A stretch of DNA of 25,546 nucleotides. Source: a virus. How positions within the stretch are numbered: the first letter of the stretch is position 1; the number at the start of each line of letters is the position of its first letter. Under the pieces are notes generated by a model. It was given only the letters and a program-made list of their open reading frames with translations, had not been told where the DNA came from and ran no database searches. The stretch is from positions 1 to 25,546 of IMG/VR virus record IMGVR_UViG_3300036715_000838. One strand, given 5' to 3'. This document shows positions 8,396 through 20,492 of this stretch, in pieces. A program made the position numbers and the translations under genes.

Positions 8396-8403
8396 CAAAT
8401 GGT

Positions 8404-8517
8404 TTGCACCTCCAGCACCTCATAAAAGGCTGTTTTACTGTTATCCTCCTATAGTAAAAATATAAAATATAATAGAGAAATAGGAAAAATAGCGTTTTTG
8501 AGGTGCAGGAGGTGCAA
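8404..8517. other. Candidate replication origin: 19-bp inverted repeat flanking an AT-rich core
   Basis: The left arm at 8404-8422 and right arm at 8499-8517 are inverted copies matching at 18 of 19 positions. Each arm holds two copies of GCACCTC (8406 and 8415; inverted as GAGGTGC at 8500 and 8509) at a 9-bp period, giving four iteron-like boxes. Between them are 76 bases rich in A and T (for example 8451-8490) in an otherwise GC-rich genome. Iterons plus an AT-rich unwinding element beside a P4-type primase is the usual origin layout; the alternatives are a regulatory cruciform or a strong RNA hairpin. This fills the non-coding stretch 8396-8539. Confidence 0.6.
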
Positions 8518-8539
8518 GCAACTTTTTACGGATAAGACT

Positions 8540-8782
8540 ATGAATGTACGAAAAGTGGCGGTGAACGAGTCCGGTTTACGAATCGGGGAGGATCACCCGA
8601 ATGCTAAGCTGACGGATGCCGAGGTGGAGCAGATTCGCTTGCTGCACAAGTCGGGCATGGGCTACGGCACCCTGGCCGAGAAGTACGAGGTCAGCAAATG
8701 GGCGATTGGCCGGATTTGCCGATATGAGCGGCGAGCGCAGACCCCGGTGAATTTTAATCAAGTGCACGTACCTAAAGACTGA
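8540..8782 (+). CDS. Small helix-turn-helix DNA-binding protein (80 aa)
   Basis: The protein contains GEDHPNAKLTDAEVEQIRLLHKSGMGYGTLAEKYEVSKWAIGRICRYERR, a resolvase-like helix-turn-helix of the sort found in small phage regulators and at the ends of HNH/NUMOD homing endonucleases. No HNH residues are present, so it is probably a DNA-binding protein rather than a nuclease. The ATG at 8540 is preferred to a TTG at 8498 that would lie inside the inverted repeat; its ribosome binding site is weak (GGATAAG). It lies between the candidate origin and the terminase genes and may regulate late genes or mark the packaging site. Its last codons include the 9-bp GTGCACGTA motif. Confidence 0.75.
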   Translation: MNVRKVAVNESGLRIGEDHPNAKLTDAEVEQIRLLHKSGMGYGTLAEKYEVSKWAIGRICRYERRAQTPVNFNQVHVPKD

Positions 8783-8800
8783 TATGGGGAAATGAGCACC

Positions 8801-9310
8801 ATGGAAACCAAAGGGCGACCCTCAACCTATACGCCGGAAGTTGCGGCATTGATTTGCGAGCGATTGGCCGCTGGCGAGTCGCTGCGTGCTATCTGCCGCG
8901 ACGCCGGAATGCCGCCTGAATCGACGGTGCGCGGCTGGGTTTTAGACAACGTGCAAGGTTTTTACGCGCAATATGCACGTGCGCGAGGTATTGGCCTCGA
9001 CGTACTGGCCGAGGAAACCCTCGCCATTGCCGACACGCCCATGGAAGGCGTGCGCCGTGAGGAAAGCTCCGACGGTTACAAAGAAGTCCACGAGGATATG
9101 CTGGGGCACCGCAAGTTGCAGGTTGATACCCGCAAGTGGCTGCTATCCAAGCTGGCGCCGAAGAAGTACGGCGAGCGCACCGCCATGGAACTGACCGGGG
9201 CTGATGGCGGCCCGGTGCGGATCACGGACACCGAGCGAGCGGCGAAGATCGCGGCCATTCTTGCCAACGCCCAGGCGCGCAAGGAAGGCGATGCTTCCGA
9301 CCTCGTTTGA
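8801..9310 (+). CDS. Terminase small subunit
   Basis: The 169-residue protein has GRPSTYTPEVAALICERLAAGESLRAICRDAGMPPESTVRGW, the helix-turn-helix of Sf6-type terminase small subunits, then a helical region (ARARGIGLDVLAEETLAIAD) and the conserved KLQVDTRKWLLSKLAPKKYGERTAMELTG. It recognises the packaging site and regulates the large subunit. An ATG at 8792 is in frame, but the only Shine-Dalgarno-like sequence (GGGGA, 8786-8790) is 1 nt from it and 10 nt from the ATG at 8801, so 8801 is chosen. The gene overlaps the large subunit by 20 nt. Confidence 0.9.
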   Translation: METKGRPSTYTPEVAALICERLAAGESLRAICRDAGMPPESTVRGWVLDNVQGFYAQYARARGIGLDVLAEETLAIADTPMEGVRREESSDGYKEVHEDMLGHRKLQVDTRKWLLSKLAPKKYGERTAMELTGADGGPVRITDTERAAKIAAILANAQARKEGDASDLV

Positions 9311-10805
9311 CCCTACCCTGTTGGGCTATCTCAAGCCCGAGGAATTGGCCGAACTGGACGCGTTGATCGCCGCCGACACGACGATATGGCGCCCGCTGCC
9401 CGGCCCGCAGTCGATTGCCTACCACTCCAAGGCCGATGTTATCGGCTACGGTGGAGCGGCCGGGGGTGGCAAGACCGACCTCGCGTGCGGCAAGGCACTG
9501 ACCCAGCACCAGAAGGTTCTTGTGCTGCGCCGTGAAGCCACGCAGCTAACCGGCATCATTGACCGATTCACCGAGCTAATCGGCAGCCGCGACGGCTACA
9601 ATGGCGCCGAGCGCATTTGGCGGTTGCCTGCCAAGCAGATAGAGTTCGGGTCGACGCCCAACCTTGACGACTGGAGCAAGTATCAAGGCCGCCCTCATGA
9701 CCTGCTGGTGTTCGACGAGGCGGCCAATTTTTTGGAGTCGCAGGCGCGCGCATTGTTGGGTTGGTTGCGGTCGGTGGATGCTACCCAGCGCTGCCAGGCG
9801 CTGCTGACATTCAACCCGCCCACCACGGCCGATGGCCGGTGGGTCGTTTCCTTCTTCGCGCCCTGGCTCGACCCGAAGCACCCAAACCCGGCCCAGCCCG
9901 GCGAGCTGCGGTGGTTCGCCATGATCGATGGCGAGGAGGTCGAGGTCGCCAGCGGCGAGCCATTCCGCCACGGCGCCGACCTAATCAAACCGATGAGCCG
10001 AACGTTCATCCCCTCGCGCGTCAGCGATAACCCCTACCTAATGGGGACCGGCTACATGGCAACCCTGCAATCCTTACCCGAGCCCCTGCGCTCTCAAATG
10101 CTCTATGGCGACTTCCAAGCTGGCATCGAGGATGACCCCTGGCAGGTTATCCCGACCGAGTGGGTGGAAGCGGCCCAGGCCAGGTGGAAGCGGCCCGACA
10201 AGCTGGCGCCCATGGATTCGCTGGGTGTGGATGTGGCTCGAGGCGGTCGCGACAACACCCTCATCGCCCGTCGCCATGGCATGTGGTTCGATGAGGCGCT
10301 GGTCTATCCTGGATCGCAGACACCGGACGGCCCGACCGTTGCGGGCCTAACGATTGCAGCGATGCGCGACCAGGCGGTGATCCATATCGATGTAATAGGC
10401 GTGGGCTCGTCGCCCTACGATTTTCTCAACGACGCCGGCCAGCAGGTGGTCGGAGTAAACGTGGCCGAATCTGCTACCAGCACCGACAAGTCAGGCCGGT
10501 TGCGCTTCAAAAACTTGCGCAGCGAGTTGTGGTGGCGGCTGCGCGAGGCCCTGGACCCGGCCAATAACACGGGTATCGCTCTGCCGCCAGATACCCGCCT
10601 TTTGGCTGACCTGTGCGCGCCGACGTGGGAGCTATCGGGCTCGACCATCTACGTGGCAAGCCGCGAGCAGATCATGGACAAAATCGGGCGCTCACCCGAC
10701 TACGGCAGCGCCTACGTGCTGGCCCTGCTCGACACTCCGAAGCGTCGGGCCCTTGCCCTGGGCAAGGACAAACAGCGCCGCGAATACGACCCCTACGCTA
10801 CTTGA
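9291..10805 (+). CDS. Terminase large subunit (DNA-packaging ATPase and nuclease)
   Basis: The 504-residue protein shows a Walker A GGAAGGGKT (54-62, K61), Walker B LLVFDEA (D142, E143), coupling motif LLTFNPP (171-177), and an RNase H-like nuclease with GVDVARGGRDNT (D314, D321), HIDVIGVG (D367) and SPDYGSAYVLAL (D470). It drives genome packaging through the portal and cuts the concatemer. Start at 9291 has AAGGA 5 nt upstream and lies inside the small subunit gene, giving translational coupling. Length is normal for the family. Confidence 0.95.
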   Translation: MLPTSFDPTLLGYLKPEELAELDALIAADTTIWRPLPGPQSIAYHSKADVIGYGGAAGGGKTDLACGKALTQHQKVLVLRREATQLTGIIDRFTELIGSRDGYNGAERIWRLPAKQIEFGSTPNLDDWSKYQGRPHDLLVFDEAANFLESQARALLGWLRSVDATQRCQALLTFNPPTTADGRWVVSFFAPWLDPKHPNPAQPGELRWFAMIDGEEVEVASGEPFRHGADLIKPMSRTFIPSRVSDNPYLMGTGYMATLQSLPEPLRSQMLYGDFQAGIEDDPWQVIPTEWVEAAQARWKRPDKLAPMDSLGVDVARGGRDNTLIARRHGMWFDEALVYPGSQTPDGPTVAGLTIAAMRDQAVIHIDVIGVGSSPYDFLNDAGQQVVGVNVAESATSTDKSGRLRFKNLRSELWWRLREALDPANNTGIALPPDTRLLADLCAPTWELSGSTIYVASREQIMDKIGRSPDYGSAYVLALLDTPKRRALALGKDKQRREYDPYAT

Positions 10806-10840
10806 TGCGCGCCACCACGGCAGCGTGCTGACGGCAGGCA

Positions 10841-10872
10841 GTGCACGTACCTGAAAACCTGCCGCCTACGAT
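10841..10872 (+). promoter_or_regulatory. Putative late promoter, copy 1 (before the acetyltransferase)
   Basis: GTGCACGTA (10841-10849), 16 bases, then CTACGAT (10866-10872). TACGAT fits a sigma70 -10 at its key T, A and last T positions, and CACGTA sits where a -35 would be with a 17-bp spacer. A 7-bp inverted repeat, CGGCAGG (10832) and CCTGCCG (10858), surrounds the first box. The predicted start point is near 10879. Confidence 0.55.
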
Positions 10873-10896
10873 GCTCGCAAACCTAGGAGCGAGCAT
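10871..10896 (+). promoter_or_regulatory. Start-codon hairpin of the acetyltransferase gene
   Basis: ATGCTCGC (10871-10878) and GCGAGCAT (10889-10896) form a perfect 8-bp stem with AAACCTAGGA in the loop. The right arm includes the first two bases of the ATG at 10895 and the AGGAG ribosome binding site is split between loop and stem. In any transcript from upstream the start would be hidden. Confidence 0.65.
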
Positions 10897-11347
10897 GTAC
10901 GAAATCCGCGAATCCACCGTCAGCGAAATGCTGGCCCTTGCCGGCGACCTGTTCGCCGAACACTGGGATGAAATCGCACTGAACAAACACATGATGGTGA
11001 TAAAGCCCGATACAAAACGGTACGAGGCCATGGAAGCCAGTGGTAGCCTGTTCATTTTTGCGGCTTTCGACAAGGATGGCGCGCTGGTCGGCTATTCGGT
11101 GAACTTCGTCGTGTACCACCTGCACTACGCCGACCTGTGTATTGCGTCTAATGACCTGCTGTTTGTCAGCAAAGAGCACCGCCACGGGCGCATTGGCCTG
11201 CAACTAATTCGGGCAACCGAGGCAAAGGCCCGGCGAGAAGGCGCGCGCCTCGTACTGTGGCACGCGAAACCCAACACACCGCTCGCCGAAATCATGCCCC
11301 GCCTGGGCTACGACGTGCAGGATATAACTTTCAGCCGGGAGGTTTGA
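10895..11347 (+). CDS. GNAT-family N-acetyltransferase
   Basis: The 150-residue protein has the GNAT layout: N-terminal helix, central strands (GSLFIFAAFDKDGALVGYSVNFVV), the acetyl-CoA loop and helix (LLFVSKEHRHGRIGLQLIRATEAKARREGA) and a C-terminal LGYDVQDITFSREV. The loop RHGRIG (96-101) departs from the usual R-x-x-G-x-G in having R at the fourth position. The substrate is unknown; in phages such enzymes may acetylate host or virion proteins or a toxin-like amine. The start at 10895 is chosen because AGGAG lies 5 nt upstream; an in-frame GTG at 10841 and ATG at 10871 lack a good site. It sits between terminase and portal and has its own candidate promoter and hairpin. Confidence 0.85.
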   Translation: MYEIRESTVSEMLALAGDLFAEHWDEIALNKHMMVIKPDTKRYEAMEASGSLFIFAAFDKDGALVGYSVNFVVYHLHYADLCIASNDLLFVSKEHRHGRIGLQLIRATEAKARREGARLVLWHAKPNTPLAEIMPRLGYDVQDITFSREV

Positions 11348-11349
11348 TC

Positions 11350-11652
11350 ATGGGAATAGTCGCAGCCGTCGCCGCTGCCGTAGGCACGGGCTACAGCATC
11401 TACTCGGGCGAACGCGCAGCCAGTGCCCAGGAAAACGCGCAGGGGCAAGCGAAGGCCAATGCCGACAAGCAAGCCGCTGCCGCCGACCAGGCGCAGAATA
11501 GAGCCAACCAGAAGCACCCCGACGTTTCCTCCATTCTCTCGGCCGCAAGTCAAGCGGGCAGAGCTGGCGAGTCCGGCACGATGCTGACCGGCCCGGCCGG
11601 CGTGGACGCCAGCACGCTGAAACTCGGCAAGAACACCCTCCTGGGGCAATAA
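11350..11652 (+). CDS. Small Ala/Gln-rich phage structural protein, unknown function (100 aa)
   Basis: The N-terminus (MGIVAAVAAAVGTGYSIYSGERAAS) is a hydrophobic Ala/Gly helix resembling a membrane-active or glycine-zipper segment. A Gln/Ala-rich helical region follows, and the end GTMLTGPAGVDASTLKLGKNTLLGQ is a pattern that recurs in small proteins encoded next to portal genes. GGGAGG, 7 nt before the ATG, lies in the end of the acetyltransferase gene. It may be a minor virion or ejection protein, since the gp14-like protein at 19941 has a similar composition; that is inference. Confidence 0.75.
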   Translation: MGIVAAVAAAVGTGYSIYSGERAASAQENAQGQAKANADKQAAAADQAQNRANQKHPDVSSILSAASQAGRAGESGTMLTGPAGVDASTLKLGKNTLLGQ

Positions 11653-11655
11653 GCT

Positions 11656-13323
11656 ATGGCCGACAAAACCCCGCGCTCTGAACTGCTCACACGCTGGGGT
11701 CAACTCAAGACCGAGCGGGCTACCTGGTGGGCGCATTGGAAGGAGATTAGCGACTACCTGCTGCCCCGTTCCGGCCGCTTCTTCATCCAGGATCGCAACC
11801 GGGGAAACCGGCGCCACAACAACATTTATGACAGTACAGGCACACGCGCGTTGCGCGTGCTCGCGGCAGGCATGATGTCGGGCATGACTAGCCCGGCGCG
11901 ACCCTGGTTCCGCCTGGCGACGGCCGACGCGGACCTGATGAAGTACGACCCGGTCAAGTTGTGGTTGAACGATGTAAGCAACTTGATGCACACGATATTT
12001 CAGCGCTCGAACACCTACCGGGCGCTGCACTCCATGTACGAAGAATTGGGCGCGTTTGGAACAGCGGCTAGCATCGTAATGCCCGACTTTAGAAACGTCA
12101 TCCACCACTACCCGCTGACAACGGGCGAATACTGCATTGCGACCAACTGGAAGGGCGAGGTGACTACGCTATACCGCGAGTTCCAGAAAACCGTCCACGA
12201 GGTCGTCTCCGAGTTCGGCATCGACAAGGTAAGCAACACGGTCAAAAACCTGTATGACCGTGGCAGCCTCGACGCCTGGATAACGATCATCCATTGCATC
12301 GAGCCCCGCACCGACCGCGACCAGACCAAGAGCGACAACCTCAATATGGAATGGAAGTCGATTTATTTCGAGGTCGGCGCACGCGAAGGCGAGGTCCTGC
12401 GCGAGGCCGGCTTTAATCACTTCCCCGCCTTAGTACCGCGCTGGGCGTTATCCGGCGGCGACATCTACGGCAACAGCCCCGGCATGGAAGCCTTGGGCGA
12501 CATCAAGCAGCTACAGCATGAGCAACTGCGTAAGGCGCAGGGCATCGACTACAAGACCAAGCCGCCTTTGCAGGTGCCCACCAGCATGAAGAACCGCGAC
12601 GTGGAAACCCTGCCCGGCGGCGTCAGTTACGTGGATATGGCTGGGCCGAATGGCGGCATTAAAACCGCCTTCGAGGTGAATATCGACCTCTCGCACTTGC
12701 TGGCCGACATTCAGGACGTGCGCCAGCGCATTCAGGGCGGATTTTACGCGGATATGTTCCTGATGCTGGCGAACCAAAGCGACGCCCGCATGACGGCCAC
12801 CGAGGTGGCCGAACGGCACGAGGAAAAACTGCTCATGTTGGGGCCCGTGCTGGAACGGTTGCAAAACGAACTGCTCGACCCGCTCATCGAGATGACGTTC
12901 GATCAGATATTGAAAGCGGGCATCGTGCCACCCCCGCCCAAGGAACTGCAAGGCCACGACATCAACGTCGAGCTGGTCAGCATGTTGGCGCAGGCGCAAC
13001 GTGCGGTGGGCACCAACAGCATCGACCGATTCGTCGGCAACCTTGGCGCGGTGGCGCAGTTCAAGCCCGAAGTCCTCGACAAGTTCGACGCCGATAAGTG
13101 GGCGGATGTCTATTCCGATTCGCTGGGCCTCGACCCGCATATCCTCGTGCCGTCCGACCAGGTGGAAGCCCTGCGCCAGCAACGCGCCCAAGCGCAGCAG
13201 CAAGCGCAGCAGGCCGCCATGCTGAACCAGGGCGCCGACACTGCGCAAAAGCTGGCCGCAGCCAGGGGCAGCGCTCCCAATGCACCGACCGACATAACCC
13301 GCGCTTTCAGCGGATACACCTAA
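11656..13323 (+). CDS. Portal protein (podovirus head-to-tail connector)
   Basis: The 555-residue protein matches the T7 gp8-type connector family in length and pattern: WWAHWKEISDYLLPRSGRF near the N-terminus, YDSTGTRALRVLAAGMMSGMTSPARPWFRL, YEELGAFGTAASIV and a C-terminal clip/barrel region with ADMFLMLANQSDARMTATEVAERHEEKLLMLGPVLERLQNELLDPLI. It forms the dodecameric ring at one capsid vertex through which the terminase pumps DNA and to which the short tail attaches. The C-terminal 60 residues are Gln/Ala-rich (RQQRAQAQQQAQQAAML) and likely form the barrel helix. It follows the small Ala-rich gene by 3 nt. Confidence 0.93.
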   Translation: MADKTPRSELLTRWGQLKTERATWWAHWKEISDYLLPRSGRFFIQDRNRGNRRHNNIYDSTGTRALRVLAAGMMSGMTSPARPWFRLATADADLMKYDPVKLWLNDVSNLMHTIFQRSNTYRALHSMYEELGAFGTAASIVMPDFRNVIHHYPLTTGEYCIATNWKGEVTTLYREFQKTVHEVVSEFGIDKVSNTVKNLYDRGSLDAWITIIHCIEPRTDRDQTKSDNLNMEWKSIYFEVGAREGEVLREAGFNHFPALVPRWALSGGDIYGNSPGMEALGDIKQLQHEQLRKAQGIDYKTKPPLQVPTSMKNRDVETLPGGVSYVDMAGPNGGIKTAFEVNIDLSHLLADIQDVRQRIQGGFYADMFLMLANQSDARMTATEVAERHEEKLLMLGPVLERLQNELLDPLIEMTFDQILKAGIVPPPPKELQGHDINVELVSMLAQAQRAVGTNSIDRFVGNLGAVAQFKPEVLDKFDADKWADVYSDSLGLDPHILVPSDQVEALRQQRAQAQQQAQQAAMLNQGADTAQKLAAARGSAPNAPTDITRAFSGYT

Positions 13324-13338
13324 CCCAAGGAGATAACC

Positions 13339-13632
13339 ATGCCTCGCGTACTTTTCAGCAAAGCCGCCTACACCCCCGGCCAGTTTCAATCGACCGAGTT
13401 CGAAGGTGAAGCCGTAACCCCCAGCGACTCCGCCGACTTGCCCAGCGGGGCCTGCACGGCCATCTACACGACCGGCGCCGGCAACGTAAACGTCAATCTG
13501 GCAGGCGGTGGCACTGCGGTGCTGACGGGCCTCTCTGCCGGTCAAATCGTGCGCGTGAATGCGAGCCGCATCCTTGCAACCAGTACCACGGCCACTGGCA
13601 TCTTCGCCCTGTACCCGGCCGGCAACCTGTAA
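13339..13632 (+). CDS. Small head protein, spike-base (Rcc01079)-like, copy 1
   Basis: The 97-residue protein contains VTPSDSADLPSGACTAIYTT, VNVNLAGGGTAVLTGLSAGQIVRVNASRI and ATSTTATGIFALY. This compact all-beta pattern matches the small family named for the gene transfer agent head-spike base protein Rcc01079. It would decorate the capsid or connector. A strong AAGGAG lies 8 nt upstream. The neighbouring gene encodes a diverged copy. The family assignment is moderately sure; its role in this virion is inferred from position between portal and scaffold. Confidence 0.7.
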   Translation: MPRVLFSKAAYTPGQFQSTEFEGEAVTPSDSADLPSGACTAIYTTGAGNVNVNLAGGGTAVLTGLSAGQIVRVNASRILATSTTATGIFALYPAGNL

Positions 13633-13644
13633 GGAGCCCAGGTC

Positions 13645-13926
13645 ATGAATCCGTTTTACGTTACGACCAATGACGCCAGCCCGATGCAGTCGGCGCTGGC
13701 CGTCACTCCAAACGATTCCGTCAACCTTGTACCCCCTACCGGCCCGGCCCGGCCGACGCGCGCCATTCTGGTGGGCGGCACGGGCAATGCGGTCCTAGTC
13801 ATGGCTGACGGCAGCACTGCGACCGTGACCGTGCCCGCGACGGGTTGCGGCTTCCTGCTCTCGTTGGCAGTGACCCGAATCTATGCCACCGGCACGACGG
13901 CTACCAGCATCGTCGCTTTCTACTAG
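13645..13926 (+). CDS. Small head protein, spike-base (Rcc01079)-like, copy 2
   Basis: The 93-residue protein shares with the preceding gene the framework AVTPNDSVNL, the strand pairs around AILVGGTGNAVLVMADGSTATVTVP and the ending TRIYATGTTATSIVAFY (compare ATSTTATGIFALY). It appears to be a tandem paralogue that has diverged, most in the centre. A GGAG lies upstream of the ATG at 13645. It could occupy a different site on the virion or mix with copy 1 in one structure. Confidence 0.7.
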   Translation: MNPFYVTTNDASPMQSALAVTPNDSVNLVPPTGPARPTRAILVGGTGNAVLVMADGSTATVTVPATGCGFLLSLAVTRIYATGTTATSIVAFY

Positions 13927-13939
13927 GAGCACCACTACC

Positions 13940-14269
13940 ATGCCACTGGTCAGTATGAAAACCGAGGACTCGGGCGTCGAAACCTACGAGCCCAACCCCA
14001 ACCTCAACCCCTACGGCTACGGCCTGCGCCTCCGGTTGAACGACGATCAGTGCGAAGCGCTGGGCATTACTACGCCACCGGCTGCCGGCACCAAGGTGAG
14101 CATTTCGGCGGCTGCCTTCGTATGTTCCGCTACGCAAACCACGGAACAGGACGGCGACGATTCAGGCATCGACGTGTTTCTCGAATTGCAGATTACCGAC
14201 ATGGAACTCGGCACGGCTACACCGAAAACCGACGCCCGATCGCTCTACCCGAACAGCACGCTACTCTAG
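13940..14269 (+). CDS. Capsid-staple-like protein
   Basis: The 109-residue protein starts MPLVSMKTEDSG and contains YGYGLRLRLNDDQCEALGITTPPAAGTKVSISAAAFV and VFLELQITDMELG, a pattern I associate with proteins annotated as phage capsid staple proteins. The start at 13940 is chosen because AGGAG lies upstream (13924-13928). Its C-terminus DARSLYPNS followed by TLL repeats the C-terminal motif of the scaffold protein two genes on. It should bind the capsid, perhaps replacing the scaffold. A strong terminator follows. Confidence 0.62.
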   Translation: MPLVSMKTEDSGVETYEPNPNLNPYGYGLRLRLNDDQCEALGITTPPAAGTKVSISAAAFVCSATQTTEQDGDDSGIDVFLELQITDMELGTATPKTDARSLYPNSTLL

Positions 14270-14288
14270 GCTTCTCCTGCCGCCTTTG

Positions 14289-14312
14289 GCCGCCTTCGGG
14301 CGGCATTTTTTT
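14289..14312 (+). terminator. Strong Rho-independent terminator
   Basis: GCCGCC-TTCG-GGCGGC forms a 6-bp GC stem with a UUCG tetraloop, followed by A and seven T. It lies 19 nt after the staple gene and just before promoter copy 2, so it separates the portal group from the capsid group of late genes. Confidence 0.92.
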
Positions 14313-14318
14313 CTTATG

Positions 14319-14350
14319 GTGCACGTACTGCCGATCGCGCGCCCTAGAGT
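14319..14350 (+). promoter_or_regulatory. Putative late promoter, copy 2 (before the capsid genes)
   Basis: GTGCACGTA (14319-14327), 16 bases, then CTAGAGT (14344-14350), at the same spacing as the copies at 10841 and 19882. It lies 7 nt after a strong terminator, where a new promoter is needed for the capsid genes. The predicted start point, near 14357, coincides with the ATG at 14358, so the first message could be leaderless. Confidence 0.62.
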
Positions 14351-14357
14351 TCCGCGC

Positions 14358-14666
14358 ATGAGCTATTTCGATCCTCTCGACATACGCGGTCAAGAACGTG
14401 CCCGGGCGGAAGCCGAGGAGCGCGCCCTCATGGCCTCGCAAATCGAGATCGACGATATAAAGTGGCTCATGAGCGACAAGCGGGGTCGTAGATTCGTGGC
14501 CCGCCTGTTTGAGCGGGCAGGCGTGTGGCGCCTATCCTTCAACACCAACGCGCTAACCATGGCCTTCAACGAGGGCACGCGCAACGAGGGGTTGAGGTTG
14601 TTGGCACAAATCACTGCGCATTGCCCCGACCGTTATACCGATATGCTCAAGGAGAGCAAGGAATGA
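14358..14666 (+). CDS. Bbp19-like protein
   Basis: The 102-residue protein contains DIKWLMSDKRGRRFVARLFERAGVWRLSFN, FNEGTRNEGLRLLAQITAHCPDRYTDMLKE, the pattern of the family named after BPP-1 Bbp19, a small helical protein encoded beside the scaffold. Its function is unknown; position suggests head assembly. The ATG at 14358 has a weak ribosome binding site, and promoter copy 2 predicts a transcript beginning almost at it. In-frame upstream starts would extend into the terminator. It ends in an ATGA overlap with the scaffold gene. Confidence 0.78.
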   Translation: MSYFDPLDIRGQERARAEAEERALMASQIEIDDIKWLMSDKRGRRFVARLFERAGVWRLSFNTNALTMAFNEGTRNEGLRLLAQITAHCPDRYTDMLKESKE

Positions 14667-15343
14667 CCACTGAGACGCTGATGACTGACGGCCAAAATAC
14701 CCAAACAGCCGACCAACAGCAAGCCGCGACTTCGCAAACCAAAGGCCAACCGGCTGCCGGTGGCGAACAAACGGCGCAGCAGCAGCAGCAAGCGACCGCA
14801 GGGCAGCAAGCGACCGCAGGGCAGAACGCCGAGGGCCAACAGGCCGAAGGCGCCAAGACCGAAGGCGAACAGGCAAAGCCGCAAGGCGCGCCCGAAAAGT
14901 ACGAGTTCAAAGCACCCGATGGCCAGAAGTTTGACGACACCGTCCTAGGTGCTTACTCCGAAATCGCCAAGGAATTGAACCTGCCACAAGACGCCGCGCA
15001 GAAGGTGCTCGACAAGGTGGCGCCTGTCATTCAGGCGCGCCAAGCCGAACAGATCGAGGCGGTACGCACCGCCTGGGCAGAGAGTGCAAAGACCGACAAG
15101 GAGTTCGGCGGCGACAAGCTGCCCGAAAACCTTGCCACGGCCAAGAAGGCACTCGACACCTTCGGCACGCCTGAACTGAAAAAGCTGCTGAACGAATCCG
15201 GTCTAGGCAACAACCCGGAAGTTATCCGAGCGTTTTACCGCGCCGGGAAAGCAATCAGCGAGGACAAGTTCGTTGGTGGCAAAGGCGCATCGCCTGATGC
15301 CAACGACGCGCGGTCCTTGTATCCAAACAGCGATTTGAAATAA
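14663..15343 (+). CDS. Scaffolding protein (putative)
   Basis: The 226-residue protein has a disordered Gln/Ala/Gly-rich N-terminal third containing an 18-bp duplicated unit (ATAGQQ), then a helical region (YEFKAPDGQKFDDTVLGAYSEIAKELNLPQDAAQKVLDKVAPVI, AVRTAWAESAKTDKEFGG) and AFYRAGKAISEDKFVGG near the end. Such acidic Gln-rich proteins directly before the major capsid gene are scaffolds that organise procapsid assembly and leave before maturation. The C-terminal DARSLYPNS then DLK likely contacts the capsid protein. The start is the ATG at 14663, overlapping the previous stop codon and preceded by AAGGA. Confidence 0.85.
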   Translation: MTTETLMTDGQNTQTADQQQAATSQTKGQPAAGGEQTAQQQQQATAGQQATAGQNAEGQQAEGAKTEGEQAKPQGAPEKYEFKAPDGQKFDDTVLGAYSEIAKELNLPQDAAQKVLDKVAPVIQARQAEQIEAVRTAWAESAKTDKEFGGDKLPENLATAKKALDTFGTPELKKLLNESGLGNNPEVIRAFYRAGKAISEDKFVGGKGASPDANDARSLYPNSDLK

Positions 15344-15354
15344 GGAGCACTTAA

Positions 15355-16362
15355 ATGGCTACTCTCACTAGCGGTCAACTTACCCTCGCCGATTGGGCGA
15401 AGCGCCTCGATCCCGAAGGTAAGGTCGAGGTCAAGATCGCCGAAATATTGAACCAGACCAACGAAATCCTCGAAGATGCAGTTTTCATCGAGGGCAACCT
15501 GCCGACTGGCCACCGCGTCAATATCCGCACCGGCTTGCCAACCGTCTATTGGCGTTCGCTGAACCAAGGCGTGCCGCGCTCCAAGAGCACCACGGCCCAG
15601 GTCGACGAGTCTTGCGGCATGCTGGAAGCCTACAGCGCGGTCGACAAGGACTTGGCCGAGCTGAACGGCAACACCGCCTCCTTCCGTCTGTCCGAGGATG
15701 TGGCCTTCCTGGAAGCCATGAACCAGGCCCAGGCGCAGACCATGTTCTACGGCAACCCGGCCACTGACCCGCGCCAGTACCTCGGCCTCTCCACTCGCTA
15801 CGGCACCATTTCCGGCGCCGGCAATGCGCAGAACATCATCGATGCGGGCGGCGCTTCCTCGAACAACGCCTCCGTCTGGCTGGTGGTGTGGGGTGAAAAC
15901 ACGGCTTTCTGCCCGTTCCCGAAGGGCTCGAAGGCCGGCCTCGTGTCTGAGGACGACGGCATCCTCACCATCTACGACAGCAGCAACAACCCCTTCAAGG
16001 CGTACCAGACCCACTACCAATGGAAGAACGGCCTCGTCGTCAAGGATTGGCGCTATGTCGTGCGCATCGCCAACATCAACACCGCCAACCTGGTGAATGA
16101 GTCCGGCGCTGCTGACCTGGTGAAGCTCATGAGCCGCGCGCTGGATCGCATCCCCAACCTGTCCATGGGCCGCGCTGCCTTCTATATGAACCGCACGCTG
16201 TTCTCGATGATGCGCATCCAGGCCCTGAACAAGAGCCAAAATGCCATCAGCGTACAGGAAGGCTTGACGCAATTCGGTCAGCCGGCCCGCTGGCTGGACT
16301 TCCTGGGCGTGCCGCTGCGCAAGGTTGACCAGCTTCTGAACACCGAAGCCCGCGTCGTCTAA
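15355..16362 (+). CDS. Major capsid protein (BPP-1 Bbp17-like)
   Basis: The 335-residue protein begins MATLTSGQLTLADWAKRLDP and includes NQTNEILEDAVFIEGNLPTGHRVNIRTGLPTVYWRSLNQGVPRSKSTTAQVDESCGMLEA, which I recognise as the major capsid of the BPP-1 group. In BPP-1 the capsid protein has a permuted HK97-like fold; by homology this one probably does too. It forms the icosahedral shell. AAGGAG lies 7 nt before the ATG. It follows the scaffold and precedes the cement gene, as expected. Codon use is strongly GC-ending and regular, typical of a highly expressed late gene. Confidence 0.93.
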   Translation: MATLTSGQLTLADWAKRLDPEGKVEVKIAEILNQTNEILEDAVFIEGNLPTGHRVNIRTGLPTVYWRSLNQGVPRSKSTTAQVDESCGMLEAYSAVDKDLAELNGNTASFRLSEDVAFLEAMNQAQAQTMFYGNPATDPRQYLGLSTRYGTISGAGNAQNIIDAGGASSNNASVWLVVWGENTAFCPFPKGSKAGLVSEDDGILTIYDSSNNPFKAYQTHYQWKNGLVVKDWRYVVRIANINTANLVNESGAADLVKLMSRALDRIPNLSMGRAAFYMNRTLFSMMRIQALNKSQNAISVQEGLTQFGQPARWLDFLGVPLRKVDQLLNTEARVV

Positions 16363-16412
16363 CCCGAAGGGGTGGAGCAATCTGCCCCGTCCTGAACATA
16401 GGAGATTCAACC

Positions 16413-16883
16413 ATGTATATCGACAACAACCTTCTCGTTTCCGGCTCTGTTTCGTCTGCGGGGGTCGTAGCCGGCCAAAACATTTTTAGTGCCGGCTCCA
16501 GCGTCCTATCGACCAACACCATTGACCTGCTGCAAGCGCGGGACGTAGGCCAAGGTTCCGACCTATTCGGCCGCTTTGAATACACCGTTGCGGCAGTGGG
16601 CGGCACCTCAATTGAGCACCAGATAATCGCAGCCGATGACGCAGCGCTAACCACGAACGTGACTGTCATCGCCACTACGGGCGCCATTCCCGTGGCCTCG
16701 CTGACGGTTGGCGCGCGCTTCGCTTGCGACATTAACCCACGCCTTGCCAGTAAGGGCCAGCGCTACGTTGGTGCTCGTTATATAAGCGTCGGCACCACGA
16801 CCGCTGGCGCTGTTATGGGCGACCTTGGCATCGAAATCCAAGACGGTCAGAAGTTCTACCCGCCCGGCTTTTCCGTGCTGTAA
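16413..16883 (+). CDS. Bbp16-like capsid cement protein
   Basis: The 156-residue protein contains MYIDNNLLVSGSVSSAG, STNTIDLLQARDVGQGSDL, RFEYTVAAVGGTSIEHQIIAADD and LASKGQRYVGARYISVGTTTAGAVM, the pattern of the BPP-1 Bbp16 cement family. These beta-sandwich proteins bind outside the mature capsid and stabilise it against DNA pressure. AGGAG lies 8 nt upstream. The 50-nt gap after the capsid gene holds no terminator or promoter I can support. Expression at near-capsid level is expected. Confidence 0.85.
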   Translation: MYIDNNLLVSGSVSSAGVVAGQNIFSAGSSVLSTNTIDLLQARDVGQGSDLFGRFEYTVAAVGGTSIEHQIIAADDAALTTNVTVIATTGAIPVASLTVGARFACDINPRLASKGQRYVGARYISVGTTTAGAVMGDLGIEIQDGQKFYPPGFSVL

Positions 16884-16895
16884 GGAGAATGAACC

Positions 16896-17114
16896 ATGGC
16901 GCAAGTCCGCGTTTTGCAAAAGTCCTACATCGGCAACCGCATCGTCGAGGAGGGCGAAGTTATTGAATACGACGGCGAGTTTTCCGACAACCTGGAACTG
17001 GTCAAGAAGGGGAAGAAGGCCGCCGTAGCACCGGCCCCCGACACCTCCGACACCTCCGACACCTCCGACACCTCGGGCGCTGACCCGGTCGGGGTAGGTG
17101 AAAGCCTAGTTTAA
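16896..17114 (+). CDS. Small phage protein with DTS repeat tail (72 aa)
   Basis: The protein has an N-terminal small beta domain (MAQVRVLQKSYIGNRIVEEG, EVIEYDGEFSDNLELVKKG), a pattern common in short phage proteins downstream of capsid genes, followed by a flexible tail with four DTS units encoded by 9-bp repeats (17040-17075). Function is unknown; a head-completion or minor decoration role is possible. AAGGAG lies upstream at 16882-16887. A terminator follows the gene. Confidence 0.78.
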   Translation: MAQVRVLQKSYIGNRIVEEGEVIEYDGEFSDNLELVKKGKKAAVAPAPDTSDTSDTSDTSGADPVGVGESLV

Positions 17115-17141
17115 CCGTTTCTCCCCAGGGGAAGCAGCTTG

Positions 17142-17167
17142 CGGGGGCCTCGTGCCCCCGTATTTTT
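17142..17167 (+). terminator. Rho-independent terminator before the tail genes
   Basis: CGGGGGC (17142-17148) and GCCCCCG (17154-17160) form a 7-bp stem with loop CTCGT, followed by TATTTTT. The U-run is immediately followed by AGGAG, the ribosome binding site of the next gene. There is no space for a promoter between them, so tail genes must depend on readthrough or an element further upstream. Confidence 0.85.
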
Positions 17168-17178
17168 AGGAGCATGCG

Positions 17179-17829
17179 ATGGCATCCGAAGTCGATATTT
17201 GTAACCTAGCCCTGGCGTACCTGGGCGACAACGCGACCGTGACAAGCCTAGACCCGCCCGAGGGGTCGGCGCAGGCCGAACACTGCGCGCGCTTCTATCC
17301 CATGGCCCGCGATTCACTGCTGGAAATGCACCCGTGGGGTTTTGCCACCTTGCGCGTTTCGCTGGCCCTGCTGGGCAGCGGATGGCCAGAGTGGGACTAC
17401 TCCTATGCCCAGCCGTCCGACGCGCTTAACATCCTCGCCATTCTGCCGCCCGACGCCACCGATGACTATAGCATGGGGCCCTCGAACGTGCCGGCAGCGG
17501 CTGGCGGTTCCTATGTGCCGCAAGCGTTTTCCTGCGAGGTGGATGGCAGCGGCAACGATGTGATTCTCACAGACCAGGTCGACGCCGTGCTGCGATACAC
17601 CAACATCGTGACCGATACGACCAAGTTCTCGCCGCTGTTCACCATGACCTTGTCCTTGCACCTAGCGTCGATGCTGGCCGGGCCGCTGCTAAAGGGCGAC
17701 GCGGGCGCCGCTGAATCCAAGCGCTGCGCCGCCTTGATGCAGAGCTATCTCTCGAAGGCTACGGAATCCGACGCCGCGCAACGGCGCATCAGTCCGCAGC
17801 ATAACGTCGGCTGGATCAACGGGAGGTAA
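17179..17829 (+). CDS. Tail tubular protein A-like (T7 gp11-like adaptor)
   Basis: The 216-residue protein starts MASEVDICNLALAYLGDNAT, followed by EHCARFYPMARDSLLEMHPWGFATLRVSLALL, the conserved start of the gp11/gp4-type podovirus adaptor family that joins portal to tail nozzle. The length is close to T7 gp11. It should form a dodecameric ring below the portal. AGGAG lies 6 nt before the ATG and directly follows the terminator U-run, so its expression may be set by terminator readthrough. The gene is 2 nt from the nozzle gene. Confidence 0.88.
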   Translation: MASEVDICNLALAYLGDNATVTSLDPPEGSAQAEHCARFYPMARDSLLEMHPWGFATLRVSLALLGSGWPEWDYSYAQPSDALNILAILPPDATDDYSMGPSNVPAAAGGSYVPQAFSCEVDGSGNDVILTDQVDAVLRYTNIVTDTTKFSPLFTMTLSLHLASMLAGPLLKGDAGAAESKRCAALMQSYLSKATESDAAQRRISPQHNVGWINGR

Positions 17830-17831
17830 GC

Positions 17832-19877
17832 ATGTCGAGCATCCGCACCTTGCAGCATTCCTTCGCTGGTGGCGAGATCAGCCCGGAAATGTTCGGGCGG
17901 ATAGACGATTCCAAGTATCAAAACGGGCTGGCAAAGTGCCTCAACTTCATCACCAAGCCGCAAGGCCCGGCCGAGAATCGGGCCGGTTTCCAGTTTGTGC
18001 GCGCGGTGAAGGATTCGACCAAGAAAGTGCGGCTGATTCCATTCACATACTCGACCACGCAAACCATGGTCATCGAGGTGGGCGCGGGCTACTTCCGTTT
18101 TCACACGCTGGGCGCCACCGTCATGAATGGCGTCGTGCCGTATGAGATTGCCAACTCGTTCGCCGAGGCCGACCTGTTCGACCTGCACTATGTCCAATCG
18201 GCCGACGTGCTCACCCTTGTGCATCCGAACTACGCGCCATGCGAACTGCGCCGCCTGGGCGCAACCAACTGGCAACTGACCACCATCGCGTTCACCCCGA
18301 CCATCGCCTCACCCACGGGCGCGGCCGCGACGCCCAACGCAACCGACACGACCTACACATACAAATACGTCGTGACTGCCATCGCCGCCGATGGATATAG
18401 CGAGTCGGCCGCCTCGGCGCAAGCCACCTGCACGAACAACCTCTACACCACCGGGCGGTGGAATAGTATTAGTTGGGGCACTGTGTCCGGTGCATCCAGG
18501 TACAACGTCTATAAAATGCAAGGCGGCCTGTACGGCTACATCGGGCAAACCACCGGGCTTTCGATTACTGACGACAACATCGCGCCCGACCTGGGCAAGA
18601 CCCCACCGATTTACGAAACTGTGTTCAACGCGGCCGGCGACTATCCGGCCGCTGTATCCTATTTCGAGCAACGGCGCTGTTTCGCTGGCACGACCAACAA
18701 GCCACAAAACATCTGGATGACGCGGAGCGGCACTGAATCGGCCATGTGCTACTCGCTGCCTATCCGTGACGATGACCGTATCGCCTTCCGCGTGGCCGCC
18801 CGCGAGGCGAACACCATCCGCCATATCGTGCCGCTGACCCAGCTCTTGCTGCTCACCAGTTCAGCCGAGTGGCGCGTCACCTCGGTCAATTCCGACGCCA
18901 TCACACCGGACACCATCAGCGTGCGCCCGCAGTCCTATGTCGGCGCGTCCAACGTGCAGCCGGTCATCATCAACAACAGCCTGATTTATGGTGCAGCCCG
19001 CGGTGGCCACATGCGCGAACTCGGCTATTCCTGGCAGGCCAACGGCTTCATCACCGGGGATTTGTCCCTACGCTCCGCGCACCTGTTTGACACCTTCGAC
19101 GTGCTGGACATGGCCTATGCCAAGGCACCGCAACCTCTCGTCTGGTTCATCAGCAGCAGCGGCAAATTGCTGGGCCTCACCTACGTGCCCGAGCAACAGA
19201 TAGGCGCGTGGCACCAGCACGATACGGATGGTGTGTTTGAATCCTGCACGGTGGTGGCCGAGGGCAGCGAGGACGTGCTTTATTGCATTGTTCGCCGAAC
19301 CATTGGCGGCAACTCGGTGCGTTATGTCGAGCGCATGGCCTCGCGTCAATTTACCGACCAGGCCGATGCCTTCTTCGTCGATTGTGGGTTGACCTACTCG
19401 GGCGCGCCCGCGACCACTATCAGTGGGCTGGACCACCTTGAGGGTAAAACGGTCAGCATCCTGGCTGATGGTGCGGTGCATCCGCAGCGCGTGGTCACGT
19501 CGGGCAGCATCATGCTCGACCAGGCGGCCAGCAAGGTGCAGATTGGCCTGCCGATTGTTGCCGACATGCAAACCCTGCCCGTGGCCGCGCAAATCGACGG
19601 TAGCTTCGGCCAGGGGCGCTACAAGAACGTCAACAAGGTGTGGCTGCGCGTCTATCGCTCGTCGGGCATCTTCGTGGGGCCTGACGCCAGCAACCTGACC
19701 GAAGCCAAGCAGCGCACGACCGAGCCCTACGGCTCACCCCCGGCGCTAAAGAGCGAGGAAATTCAAGTATTGCTGTCACCCTCGTGGGCCGATAGCGGGC
19801 AGATTTTCGTGCGCCAGTCCGACCCCCTGCCCTTGTCCATTGTGTCCTTGACGGCAGAGGTTACACTCGGCGCATAA
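17832..19877 (+). CDS. Tail tubular protein B-like (nozzle / DNA stabilisation protein)
   Basis: The 681-residue protein starts MSSIRTLQHSFAGGEISPEM and FGRIDDSKYQNGLAKCLNFITKPQGPAENRAG, the hallmark of podovirus nozzle proteins (T7 gp12-like). Residues about 165-260 (TYTYKYVVTAIAADGYSES, WGTVSGASRYNVYKMQGG) resemble a fibronectin type III-like insertion. It should form the hexameric nozzle that closes the tail and opens for DNA ejection. GGGAGG lies 6 nt before the ATG. Promoter copy 3 follows its stop codon. Confidence 0.88.
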   Translation: MSSIRTLQHSFAGGEISPEMFGRIDDSKYQNGLAKCLNFITKPQGPAENRAGFQFVRAVKDSTKKVRLIPFTYSTTQTMVIEVGAGYFRFHTLGATVMNGVVPYEIANSFAEADLFDLHYVQSADVLTLVHPNYAPCELRRLGATNWQLTTIAFTPTIASPTGAAATPNATDTTYTYKYVVTAIAADGYSESAASAQATCTNNLYTTGRWNSISWGTVSGASRYNVYKMQGGLYGYIGQTTGLSITDDNIAPDLGKTPPIYETVFNAAGDYPAAVSYFEQRRCFAGTTNKPQNIWMTRSGTESAMCYSLPIRDDDRIAFRVAAREANTIRHIVPLTQLLLLTSSAEWRVTSVNSDAITPDTISVRPQSYVGASNVQPVIINNSLIYGAARGGHMRELGYSWQANGFITGDLSLRSAHLFDTFDVLDMAYAKAPQPLVWFISSSGKLLGLTYVPEQQIGAWHQHDTDGVFESCTVVAEGSEDVLYCIVRRTIGGNSVRYVERMASRQFTDQADAFFVDCGLTYSGAPATTISGLDHLEGKTVSILADGAVHPQRVVTSGSIMLDQAASKVQIGLPIVADMQTLPVAAQIDGSFGQGRYKNVNKVWLRVYRSSGIFVGPDASNLTEAKQRTTEPYGSPPALKSEEIQVLLSPSWADSGQIFVRQSDPLPLSIVSLTAEVTLGA

Positions 19878-19881
19878 CCCG

Positions 19882-19913
19882 GTGCACGTAGCCGCGCGGT
19901 CGGGCGCTACTGT
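19882..19913 (+). promoter_or_regulatory. Putative late promoter, copy 3 (before the ejection genes)
   Basis: GTGCACGTA (19882-19890), 16 bases, then CTACTGT (19907-19913), with the spacing of the copies at 10841 and 14319. The predicted start point near 19920 leaves about 20 nt of leader carrying the GGGGGA ribosome binding site of the 19941 gene. It would drive the internal-protein genes separately from the tail genes. Confidence 0.6.
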
Positions 19914-19940
19914 TGCCCTCAATTATCAGGGGGATAGAGC

Positions 19941-20492
19941 ATGCTATTTACTTCGGACCAGTTGGCACAAGCGTCGATGTTTCCGCAGATTGGCGGCGCG
20001 TTAAGTTCGGCTATCGGCGGCTACTATAGCGCGCAATCCCAGCAAAGCAGCTTGCGCTTTCAAGCGGATATGGCCGCCATCAACGCACGAATCGCCGAGC
20101 TTGGCGCGCAATCGGCCCTCAACCAGGGTCAGCAGCAGGTCGGAGCGCTTACCCTCAAAGCGGGGCAACTCAAGAGCAGCCAGCGCGCGGCCATGGCCGC
20201 CAACGGTATCGACCTGGGCGAGGGCAATGCGGCCGAGGTGCAGGCGTCCACCGACATCATGAAGGAAATTGACGCCAACACGCTGACCGCCAACGCCGTG
20301 CGCAGCGCCTGGGGCTATCGAACTCAAAGCGTCAATTACCAGAATGAGGCGGCTTTGCGTTCGGCCACCGCCGACACTATCAGCCCTTTTGCTGCGGCGG
20401 CCACCTCCCTGCTTGGCAGCGCCGGCAGCGTGGCGAATAGCTGGTACAACTACAGCGTCCGGACATCCCCCCCAACAGCCGGAAAACAATAG
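19941..20492 (+). CDS. Internal virion protein (T7 gp14-like), putative
   Basis: The 183-residue protein has a short Gly/Ala/Ser hydrophobic region (IGGALSSAIGGYYSAQSQQSS), a long Gln/Ala-rich helix (ADMAAINARIAELGAQSALNQGQQQVGALTLKAGQLKSSQRAAMAANGIDLGEGN) and ANAVRSAWGYRTQSVNYQNEA. This pattern is typical of gp14-like core proteins encoded between nozzle and large ejection proteins. On infection such proteins enter the outer membrane to help form the DNA channel. GGGGGA is 6 nt before the ATG. Confidence 0.78.
   Translation: MLFTSDQLAQASMFPQIGGALSSAIGGYYSAQSQQSSLRFQADMAAINARIAELGAQSALNQGQQQVGALTLKAGQLKSSQRAAMAANGIDLGEGNAAEVQASTDIMKEIDANTLTANAVRSAWGYRTQSVNYQNEAALRSATADTISPFAAAATSLLGSAGSVANSWYNYSVRTSPPTAGKQ

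Follow-up and report, generated by a model that had tools for sequence, protein, structure and literature searches.

Which signal turns on the late genes of a BPP-1-like podovirus? The question is raised by a virus record of 25,546 bases (IMGVR_UViG_3300036715_000838; this whole stretch is called the window here), in which the 9-mer GTGCACGTA stands before three late genes, each time followed at the same distance by a -10-like sequence. Our analysis, which consists of sequence comparison and one structure prediction, suggests that these two-box elements are most probably late promoters of the host sigma70 RNA polymerase, activated from the -35 position by an 80-residue helix-turn-helix (HTH) protein that the phage itself encodes. 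All counts below refer to non-redundant sequences under the rules given with them.

Two-box elements in the window and in related phages

The initial annotation described the element as GTGCACGTA-N16-CTA(C/G)NNT, and this exact pattern was found three times in the window, always on the plus strand, and in none of 100 dinucleotide shuffles. The 9-mer alone occurs four times (at 8762, 10841, 14319 and 19882), in every case on the plus strand, which is the late strand, compared to a mean of 0.11 and a largest count of 2 in the shuffles. The annotated distance of 31-54 nt to the start codon mixed different reference points; counted from the first base of the box, the codon lies 54 nt (10895), 39 nt (14358) and 59 nt (19941) downstream.

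Three of our locus searches retained the best 80 matches, and many of the loci are metagenome fragments. The search with a tail protein yielded 80 related viral loci, which together with the window make 81 loci (1.11 Mb). Conservation of the boxes and of their spacing in related phages, on which the initial annotation had staked its proposal, was found in these loci. With further records that duplicate the window left out, the word GTGCRCGTA occurs 81 times on the late strand compared to 3 times on the other, and TANNNT lies exactly 17 nt past the box in 70 of the 81. Two control words, one reversed and one complemented, were each found at 24 places distributed over both strands, with TANNNT at this offset in 1 and 0 of them, respectively. 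Furthermore, a position weight matrix built from 67 unique sites and applied at a score of at least 12 to the same loci from which it was built returned 115 late-strand sites and a single one on the opposite strand. The second box reads CTA(C/G)NNT at the three window sites, as annotated, but its family-wide form is TANNNT, neither the leading C nor the C/G being general. Sites of the family recur before the GNAT gene, bbp19, the internal virion protein gene and a tail-fibre gene. Matching the third window site, GGTGC(A/G)CGTA-N16-NTANNNT directly follows the tail gene in many divergent phages, and Bordetella phage BPP-1 has three sites with the box GTGCCCGTG, located before bbp24, bbp19 and bbp9.

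The box differs between phages and is consistent within each of them. When anchored on bbp19, boxes include GTGCACGTA, GTGCGCGTA, GTGCCCGTA, GTACCCGTA, GTGACCGTA, GTGTGCGTA, GTATACGTC and ATGCACTTA. Among 66 non-redundant genomes in which both the HTH gene and a box are present, 48 contain their own box again, exactly and at the fixed distance from a -10, at one or more further sites; these sites number 77 on the late strand and 0 on the other, compared to a summed mean of 0.26 for foreign boxes, and in four genomes there is additionally one site at which the own box is altered by a single letter. Because the bbp19 boxes were defined as lying 17 nt before TANNNT, the spacing figures were restricted to own-box words away from bbp19, of which 77 out of 102 have TANNNT at offset 17, 4 at offset 18 and none at offset 16. 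Such consistency within a phage, combined with variation between phages, is explained by a phage factor and not easily by a host factor.

It is scarcely conceivable that the boxes are mere recombination linkers at module boundaries, or chance repeats, with no regulatory role. Their location at gene boundaries in a mosaic phage family would suit linkers, but these would need neither a -10 nor a sequence that tracks the HTH helix, and the fixed TANNNT spacing, the nearly exclusive use of the late strand and the covariation with one protein (see below) all argue against them.

Covariation between the box and a small HTH protein

The initial annotation had named the product of the gene at 8540, the HTH protein, as a candidate reader of the box, and this proposal is supported by a covariation between its residues and the bases at box positions 3 and 5 that is stronger than for portal, TerL and Bbp19. 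In relatives, the ortholog of this gene is located upstream of the terminase genes, and it is present in all 47 non-redundant loci that extend at least 9.5 kb upstream of bbp19 (loci fetched via the HTH protein being excluded).

Mutual information (MI) was calculated from 91 genome groups having both genes. Five of these were excluded: L245, L246 and L137, which have no leaderless -10 by the rule described below, and L045 and L126, whose box scores are poor. L045 (residue pair GR, box G3 A5) would agree with the code given below and L126 would not. The remaining 86 were merged to 66 at near-duplicates, and the box register was moved by one in 13 of 88 rows. The four alignments (HTH, portal, TerL and Bbp19) comprise 1926 columns, of which 1002 passed the filters and were scored. 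For box position 3, column 53 of the HTH alignment was the best of all (normalised MI 0.372, next 0.240; shuffle z 15.4), and for position 5 it was HTH column 54 (0.503, best non-HTH column 0.222; z 24.4), both z values being uncorrected for descent. The two columns are adjacent positions of the recognition helix and correspond to G57 and R58 in the window protein. An AlphaFold2 model based on 61 family members (mean pLDDT, the model's confidence score, 92.4) consists of three helices (26-37, 42-49 and 53-60) and two strands, with G57 and R58 in the last helix, the predicted recognition helix.

The residue pair at these columns goes with a defined pair of bases: RD with G3G5 (13/13), GR with G3A5 (9/9), AK with G3C5 (12/14), QK with A3C5 (7/9) and AG with G3G5 (4/4). 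Shared descent was controlled by the comparison with the other proteins and by a leave-out test, in which close relatives by portal identity were removed and a genome was scored only where the same residue pair remained in another genome. With relatives of at least 0.9 portal identity removed, 56 of the 66 genomes were scorable, and the residue pair gave both bases right in 50 of them, compared to 24/56 for the nearest portal, 20/49 for the nearest TerL, 28/56 for the nearest rest of the HTH protein and 17/56 for the majority. The corresponding figures for the pair, portal, TerL, rest of the HTH protein and majority were 33/46, 13/46, 6/39, 8/46 and 13/46 at a cut-off of 0.7, and 12/24, 4/24, 1/18, 2/24 and 8/24 at 0.6. 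Moreover, among pairs of genomes with portal identity of 0.6-0.75, both base positions were shared in 137 of 159 having the same residue pair compared to 148 of 1469 having different ones.

The residue-to-base rule was fixed before hold-out records were read, and it held in 4/4 further phages with standard sites, namely zth2-2 (QK, GTACCCGTA), DC33 (KK, GTACCCGTA), ctQRb9 (QK, GTACCCGTA) and ctEw122 (AK, GTGCCCGTA). In each of these, four or five sites were found, all of them on the late strand (at most one mismatch, repeats from the 8-kb extension being discounted). As these phages are related to the training genomes, the helix of DC33 being the same as that of L049, this is a moderate test. 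In the more distant Caulobacter phage Jess A (L309), which has the pair RD, the box GTGCGCATG was found by eye before bbp19 and was seen at three sites, GGTGCGCATGAT, one before bbp19 and two at other gene boundaries; its positions 3 and 5 fit the rule. Together, these data strongly support the HTH protein as the putative sequence-specific reader of the box, as judged from sequence, and a two-residue HTH code appears to have changed in step with promoter DNA across dozens of phages.

A host alternative sigma factor, for example one of the extracytoplasmic function (ECF) type, might instead read the element directly, the link to the HTH protein reflecting shared ancestry. ECF promoters have two boxes with a spacing of 16-17 nt, which the layout described here resembles, and weak matches to a sigma70-ECF model were obtained for 11/61 HTH members (E <=0.01). 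The box, however, differs among related phages and, at positions 3 and 5, tracks the HTH helix better than it tracks portal or TerL. In addition, the window pattern with TANNNT occurs twice in three metagenome-assembled genomes with HTH relatives (about 8.1 Mb), a search made with the window's box and not with the own box of each phage in them; one of the two matches is a prophage's own bbp19 promoter, and the other lies about 3 kb upstream of an HTH relative in L160. A host sigma factor as direct reader is accordingly regarded as very unlikely.

A predicted sigma70 promoter with a phage protein at the -35 place

The initial annotation suggested that the late promoters of these genes require a phage factor recognising GTGCACGTA, and this is supported by the conservation and spacing of the box in the 81 loci and by its covariation with the HTH protein. 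By sequence fit, TANNNT at the three window sites and at the 77 own-box words mentioned above has the form of a sigma70 -10. Among 137 unique sites, the best match to a TTGACA-like -35 is 3/6 and none has the TGn of an extended -10, compared to background TANNNT sites, 129 of 1279 of which match TTGACA in at least 4 positions and 53 of which have TGn. No sigma70-like promoter was found by consensus at 8400-20400 of the window, where 3.1 would be expected.

We propose that the host sigma70 RNA polymerase would use TANNNT as its -10, and that the box of 9-10 bp, 17 bp from the -10, would occupy the -35 contact place of sigma region 4, with the HTH protein bound there instead. Because many box variants are non-palindromic, the protein probably binds as a monomer. 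Its binding would recruit or stabilise the polymerase and thereby turn on the GNAT, bbp19-like and internal virion protein genes, and in relatives it would also switch on the tail-fibre gene and sometimes the terminase genes. The two adjacent residues of the recognition helix would set box positions 3 and 5, so that protein and promoters would have changed together. From the sequences we infer activation rather than repression, sigma70 as the partner, the displacement of region 4 and the start sites of transcription.

Alternatively, the HTH protein may bind the same boxes as a repressor that covers the -35 region until late infection or in lysogeny, which we consider unlikely. The box does overlie the -35 position, and covariation indicates reading and not the sign of the effect. 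Moreover, a copy of the own box close to the 3' end of the HTH gene, such as feedback might require, is present no more than 75 nt from the stop codon of that gene in 15/66 genomes exactly, and in 22/66 with at most one mismatch (foreign-box expectation 0.04 and 1.22). On the other side, there is no TTGACA-like -35 and no extended -10, without which the sites should be weak when unaided, and the fixed distance from box to -10 (offset 17 in 77/102) would be expected if the bound protein meets the polymerase, and less so for a blocker.

The copy of the box at 8762 in the window had been annotated as the first box only; its -10 position does read GGAAAT, but the recurrence of the box there in relatives indicates that it is not an isolated half-site. 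In the 22 genomes the -10 position reads TGGAAT in 6, TTGAAT in 3 and a full TANNNT in 6. This fourth box may weakly promote transcription of the terminase genes, or it may be a feedback site.

For the reading as an activated promoter, the layout at bbp19 is informative about the start point. TANNNT ends 5-9 nt ahead of the start codon of the bbp19-like gene in 174 of 185 non-redundant loci, at 6 nt in 117 of them, and a leaderless transcript is therefore expected: transcription would start at the AUG itself. The bbp19-anchored rule uses only the -10 and the start codon, and its five allowed offsets per candidate start correspond to about 5/64 by chance (reckoned, not simulated). At the other own-box sites of the 66-genome set, an ATG follows the -10 by 5-8 nt in 29/77 (about 5 would be expected if the four bases were equally frequent); of the remaining sites, 27 have a Shine-Dalgarno-like stretch and a start further downstream. 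In the window, the leaderless layout is found only at 14319, and the elements at 10841 and 19882 have leaders. We infer that the bbp19-like gene is read from a leaderless mRNA.

The same layout bears on a Q-like antitermination mechanism, in which the box would bind an antiterminator and the -10-like part would be a sigma-dependent pause. A qut-like site could have this form, with a DNA box and a -10-like element side by side near late genes. Several copies are present per genome, however, and at internal gene boundaries, and the start codon 5-9 nt past the -10 in those 174/185 loci suits a start of transcription there. We regard antitermination as extremely unlikely.

Several observations weigh against activation by the HTH protein or against parts of it. 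The covariation does not extend over the whole box: for position 4, the 14 best columns include none from the HTH protein, so that the code is limited to positions 3 and 5, and the leading columns, from portal, TerL and Bbp19, reach values as high as 0.264, an indication of what shared descent can produce by itself; for position 7, a Bbp19 column ranks first; and for position 9, HTH column 63 is first but reaches just 0.247 (z 4.5). The MI test includes no formal phylogenetic model, and the success of the residue pair is lower at portal cut-offs of 0.7 and 0.6, though above the controls. Exceptions to the code are L243, which has the pair KS with GTGCACGTA and perhaps another HTH gene, L109 (HR with C3C5), two QK with A3A5, one AK with G3A5, one AK with A3C5, and SK, which is divided between T3C5 (2) and A3C5 (1). 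As for the sites, 18/66 genomes have no second exact own-box site in the sequence examined, and the junction between the tail and internal virion protein genes is without a site in BPP-1 and some other relatives. The leaderless -10 is missing in 11 of the 185 loci: L019 and L152 have the box and a -10 with the ATG 10 nt on, L221 and L090 keep the box without TANNNT, and the other seven have no clear box there. In Jess A, the -10 position reads GATACA, TAAATA and TAAAAA rather than TANNNT, for which reason this phage was left out of the hold-out count; perhaps its host has a specific -10 preference.

Origin of the HTH protein, gene context and related systems

Viral structure matches of the HTH protein include many HNH and homing endonucleases, and we propose that it may have descended from the DNA-binding domain of a homing endonuclease. 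The fold appears to be shared with the HTH domains of homing endonucleases and of Hin and resolvase, but their nuclease or recombinase domain was not found here: the Pfam matches of the 80-residue protein include no nuclease domain, no recombinase domain was found in it, and the endonuclease PHROG aligns with it only over residues 172-226 of the 261 of that family. Matches in the PDB are weak and tied at Z of about 5-6.5, with Hin (6.5) leading and Tc3, resolvase, GcrA and sigma region 4 domains among the others; MotA is not among the PDB matches listed, but such fold lists cannot exclude a family, and we took no function from them. The protein does not have the make-up of a phage-encoded sigma factor, since regions 2 and 4 are not present together and 80 residues hold a single HTH; weak matches to sigma region 4 were obtained for 8/61 and 5/61 HTH members with two Pfam models. 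Orthologs are labelled 'endonuclease' (BPP-1 bbp27, RefSeq) and '54S ribosomal protein' (ctQRb9, L307, 36495-36830), and both names look wrong. A wider reading, which we offer tentatively and would put at somewhat less than an even chance, is that a minimal HTH from a homing-endonuclease domain serves in the BPP-1 family as a monomeric stand-in for sigma region 4 that directs sigma70 to late promoters, some of them leaderless, and that its two-residue code has diversified into mutually distinct activator-promoter pairs.

A bbp19-like match was found in 53 phage records, 13 of which are also among the 50 records listed by tblastn of the window HTH protein (E <=0.01); the other 40, epsilon15 included, are outside those 50, and a search of epsilon15 with the HTH hidden Markov model found no ortholog. 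In the outgroups epsilon15, PfDIW6 and phiSG1, the bbp19 homolog begins where the portal gene ends or no more than about 12 nt away.

The window is a fragment of a BPP-1-like podovirus. Its first and last long open reading frames (ORFs) run past both ends, so it represents a partial genome. The region 8400-20500 matches BPP-1 by megablast with 78% identity across 20%, and the portal protein is 69.5% identical to that of BPP-1. Downstream of the HTH gene lie the genes for the terminase small and large subunits, a GNAT acetyltransferase, a small ORF, the portal (head-tail adaptor), two tail-fibre-like genes, a phrog_825 gene, the bbp19-like gene, a protease, the major head protein, two small genes, two tail proteins, the internal virion protein and an endolysin (Table 1).

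Table 1. Positions of the elements and associated genes in the window
Feature	Position	Strand	Remarks
HTH protein gene	8540..8782	+	80 aa; BPP-1 Bbp27 relative; candidate reader and activator; recognition helix predicted at 53-60, with specificity residues G57, R58
Fourth box copy	8762..8770	+	Within last HTH codons, before terminase small subunit gene; -10 position GGAAAT
Late promoter-like element before GNAT gene	10841..10872	+	Box 10841-10849; -10 TACGAT 10867-10872; ATG 10895; equivalents in relatives
GNAT acetyltransferase gene	10895..11347	+	Downstream of first element
Intrinsic-terminator-like stem and T run	14289..14304	+	Just upstream of second element; such sites overall not above shuffles
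Late promoter-like element before bbp19-like gene	14319..14350	+	Box 14319-14327; -10 TAGAGT 14345-14350; predicted start at or beside ATG 14358
bbp19-like gene (PF25181 Phage_Bbp19)	14358..14666	+	Leaderless mRNA expected
Late promoter-like element before internal virion protein gene	19882..19913	+	Box 19882-19890; -10 TACTGT 19908-19913; ATG 19941
Internal virion protein gene	19941..20492	+	Downstream of third element

The strong terminator annotated before the second element is present as a stem followed by a T run, but terminator-like sites in the region number 12 compared to 11.5 expected from shuffles; a further stem and T run (17140-17162) lies between the end of a small gene at 17114 and a tail gene at 17179. 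In the predicted leader of the GNAT gene (10873-10894), an inverted repeat GCTCGC...GCGAGC flanks the likely ribosome-binding site. The adjacent genes at 13339-13632 and 13645-13926 both match phrog_12296 (tail fibre protein) and are perhaps a tandem duplication. Limnohabitans phage DC33 (L305, PQ492659.1) has Inoviridae in its taxonomy line, yet its 39-kb genome contains tailed-phage, BPP-1-like portal, bbp19 and HTH genes.

Late promoters with a -10 and a poor -35 are the targets of the phage-encoded activators Mu C, P2 Ogr and P1 Lpa, which act from dyad or inverted-repeat sites. The HTH protein resembles them as a proposed phage-encoded activator of promoters of this kind, and differs from them in that many of its boxes are non-palindromic and lie at about -38 to -30. 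BPP-1 Bbp27 is an ortholog of the HTH protein (64.5% identity) and belongs to the same system, with a specificity different from that of the window (its residue pair is AK, and its box has C at position 5). In BPP-1, which serves as the model for diversity-generating retroelements, the site before bbp9 (L084, NC_005357.1, about 6153-6184, minus strand) lies upstream of mtd and the genes of the retroelement, and late transcription of this cassette may begin there.

The T4 middle promoters exemplify sigma appropriation, with MotA as the activator and AsiA as a partner that remodels sigma region 4. According to one account of these promoters, a phage box replaces the -35, the -10 of host sigma70 is kept, the activator works as a monomer, the MotA box is centred at -30, 12 +/- 1 bp from the -10, and the DNA-binding half of MotA is a double wing (PMC2988021). 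The elements described here are similar in having a phage box in the -35 place and a sigma70-type -10, and different in their distance of 17 bp and in a reader predicted to be a three-helix HTH protein of 80 residues; the genes here are late ones. Among the literature matches listed, which do not cover the BPP-1 and epsilon15 genome papers, no account of this promoter class, of a role of Bbp27 or of late-gene switching in BPP-1-like phages was found.

For this family, the analysis names a candidate activator and its likely sites across many phages, and with the residue-to-base code part of a site can be predicted when the protein sequence is known. It would also provide a test bed for the joint change of a transcription factor and all of its promoters, as well as a set of small activator-promoter pairs, and a further prediction is that phages with Gram-negative hosts have a conserved late gene whose message is leaderless.

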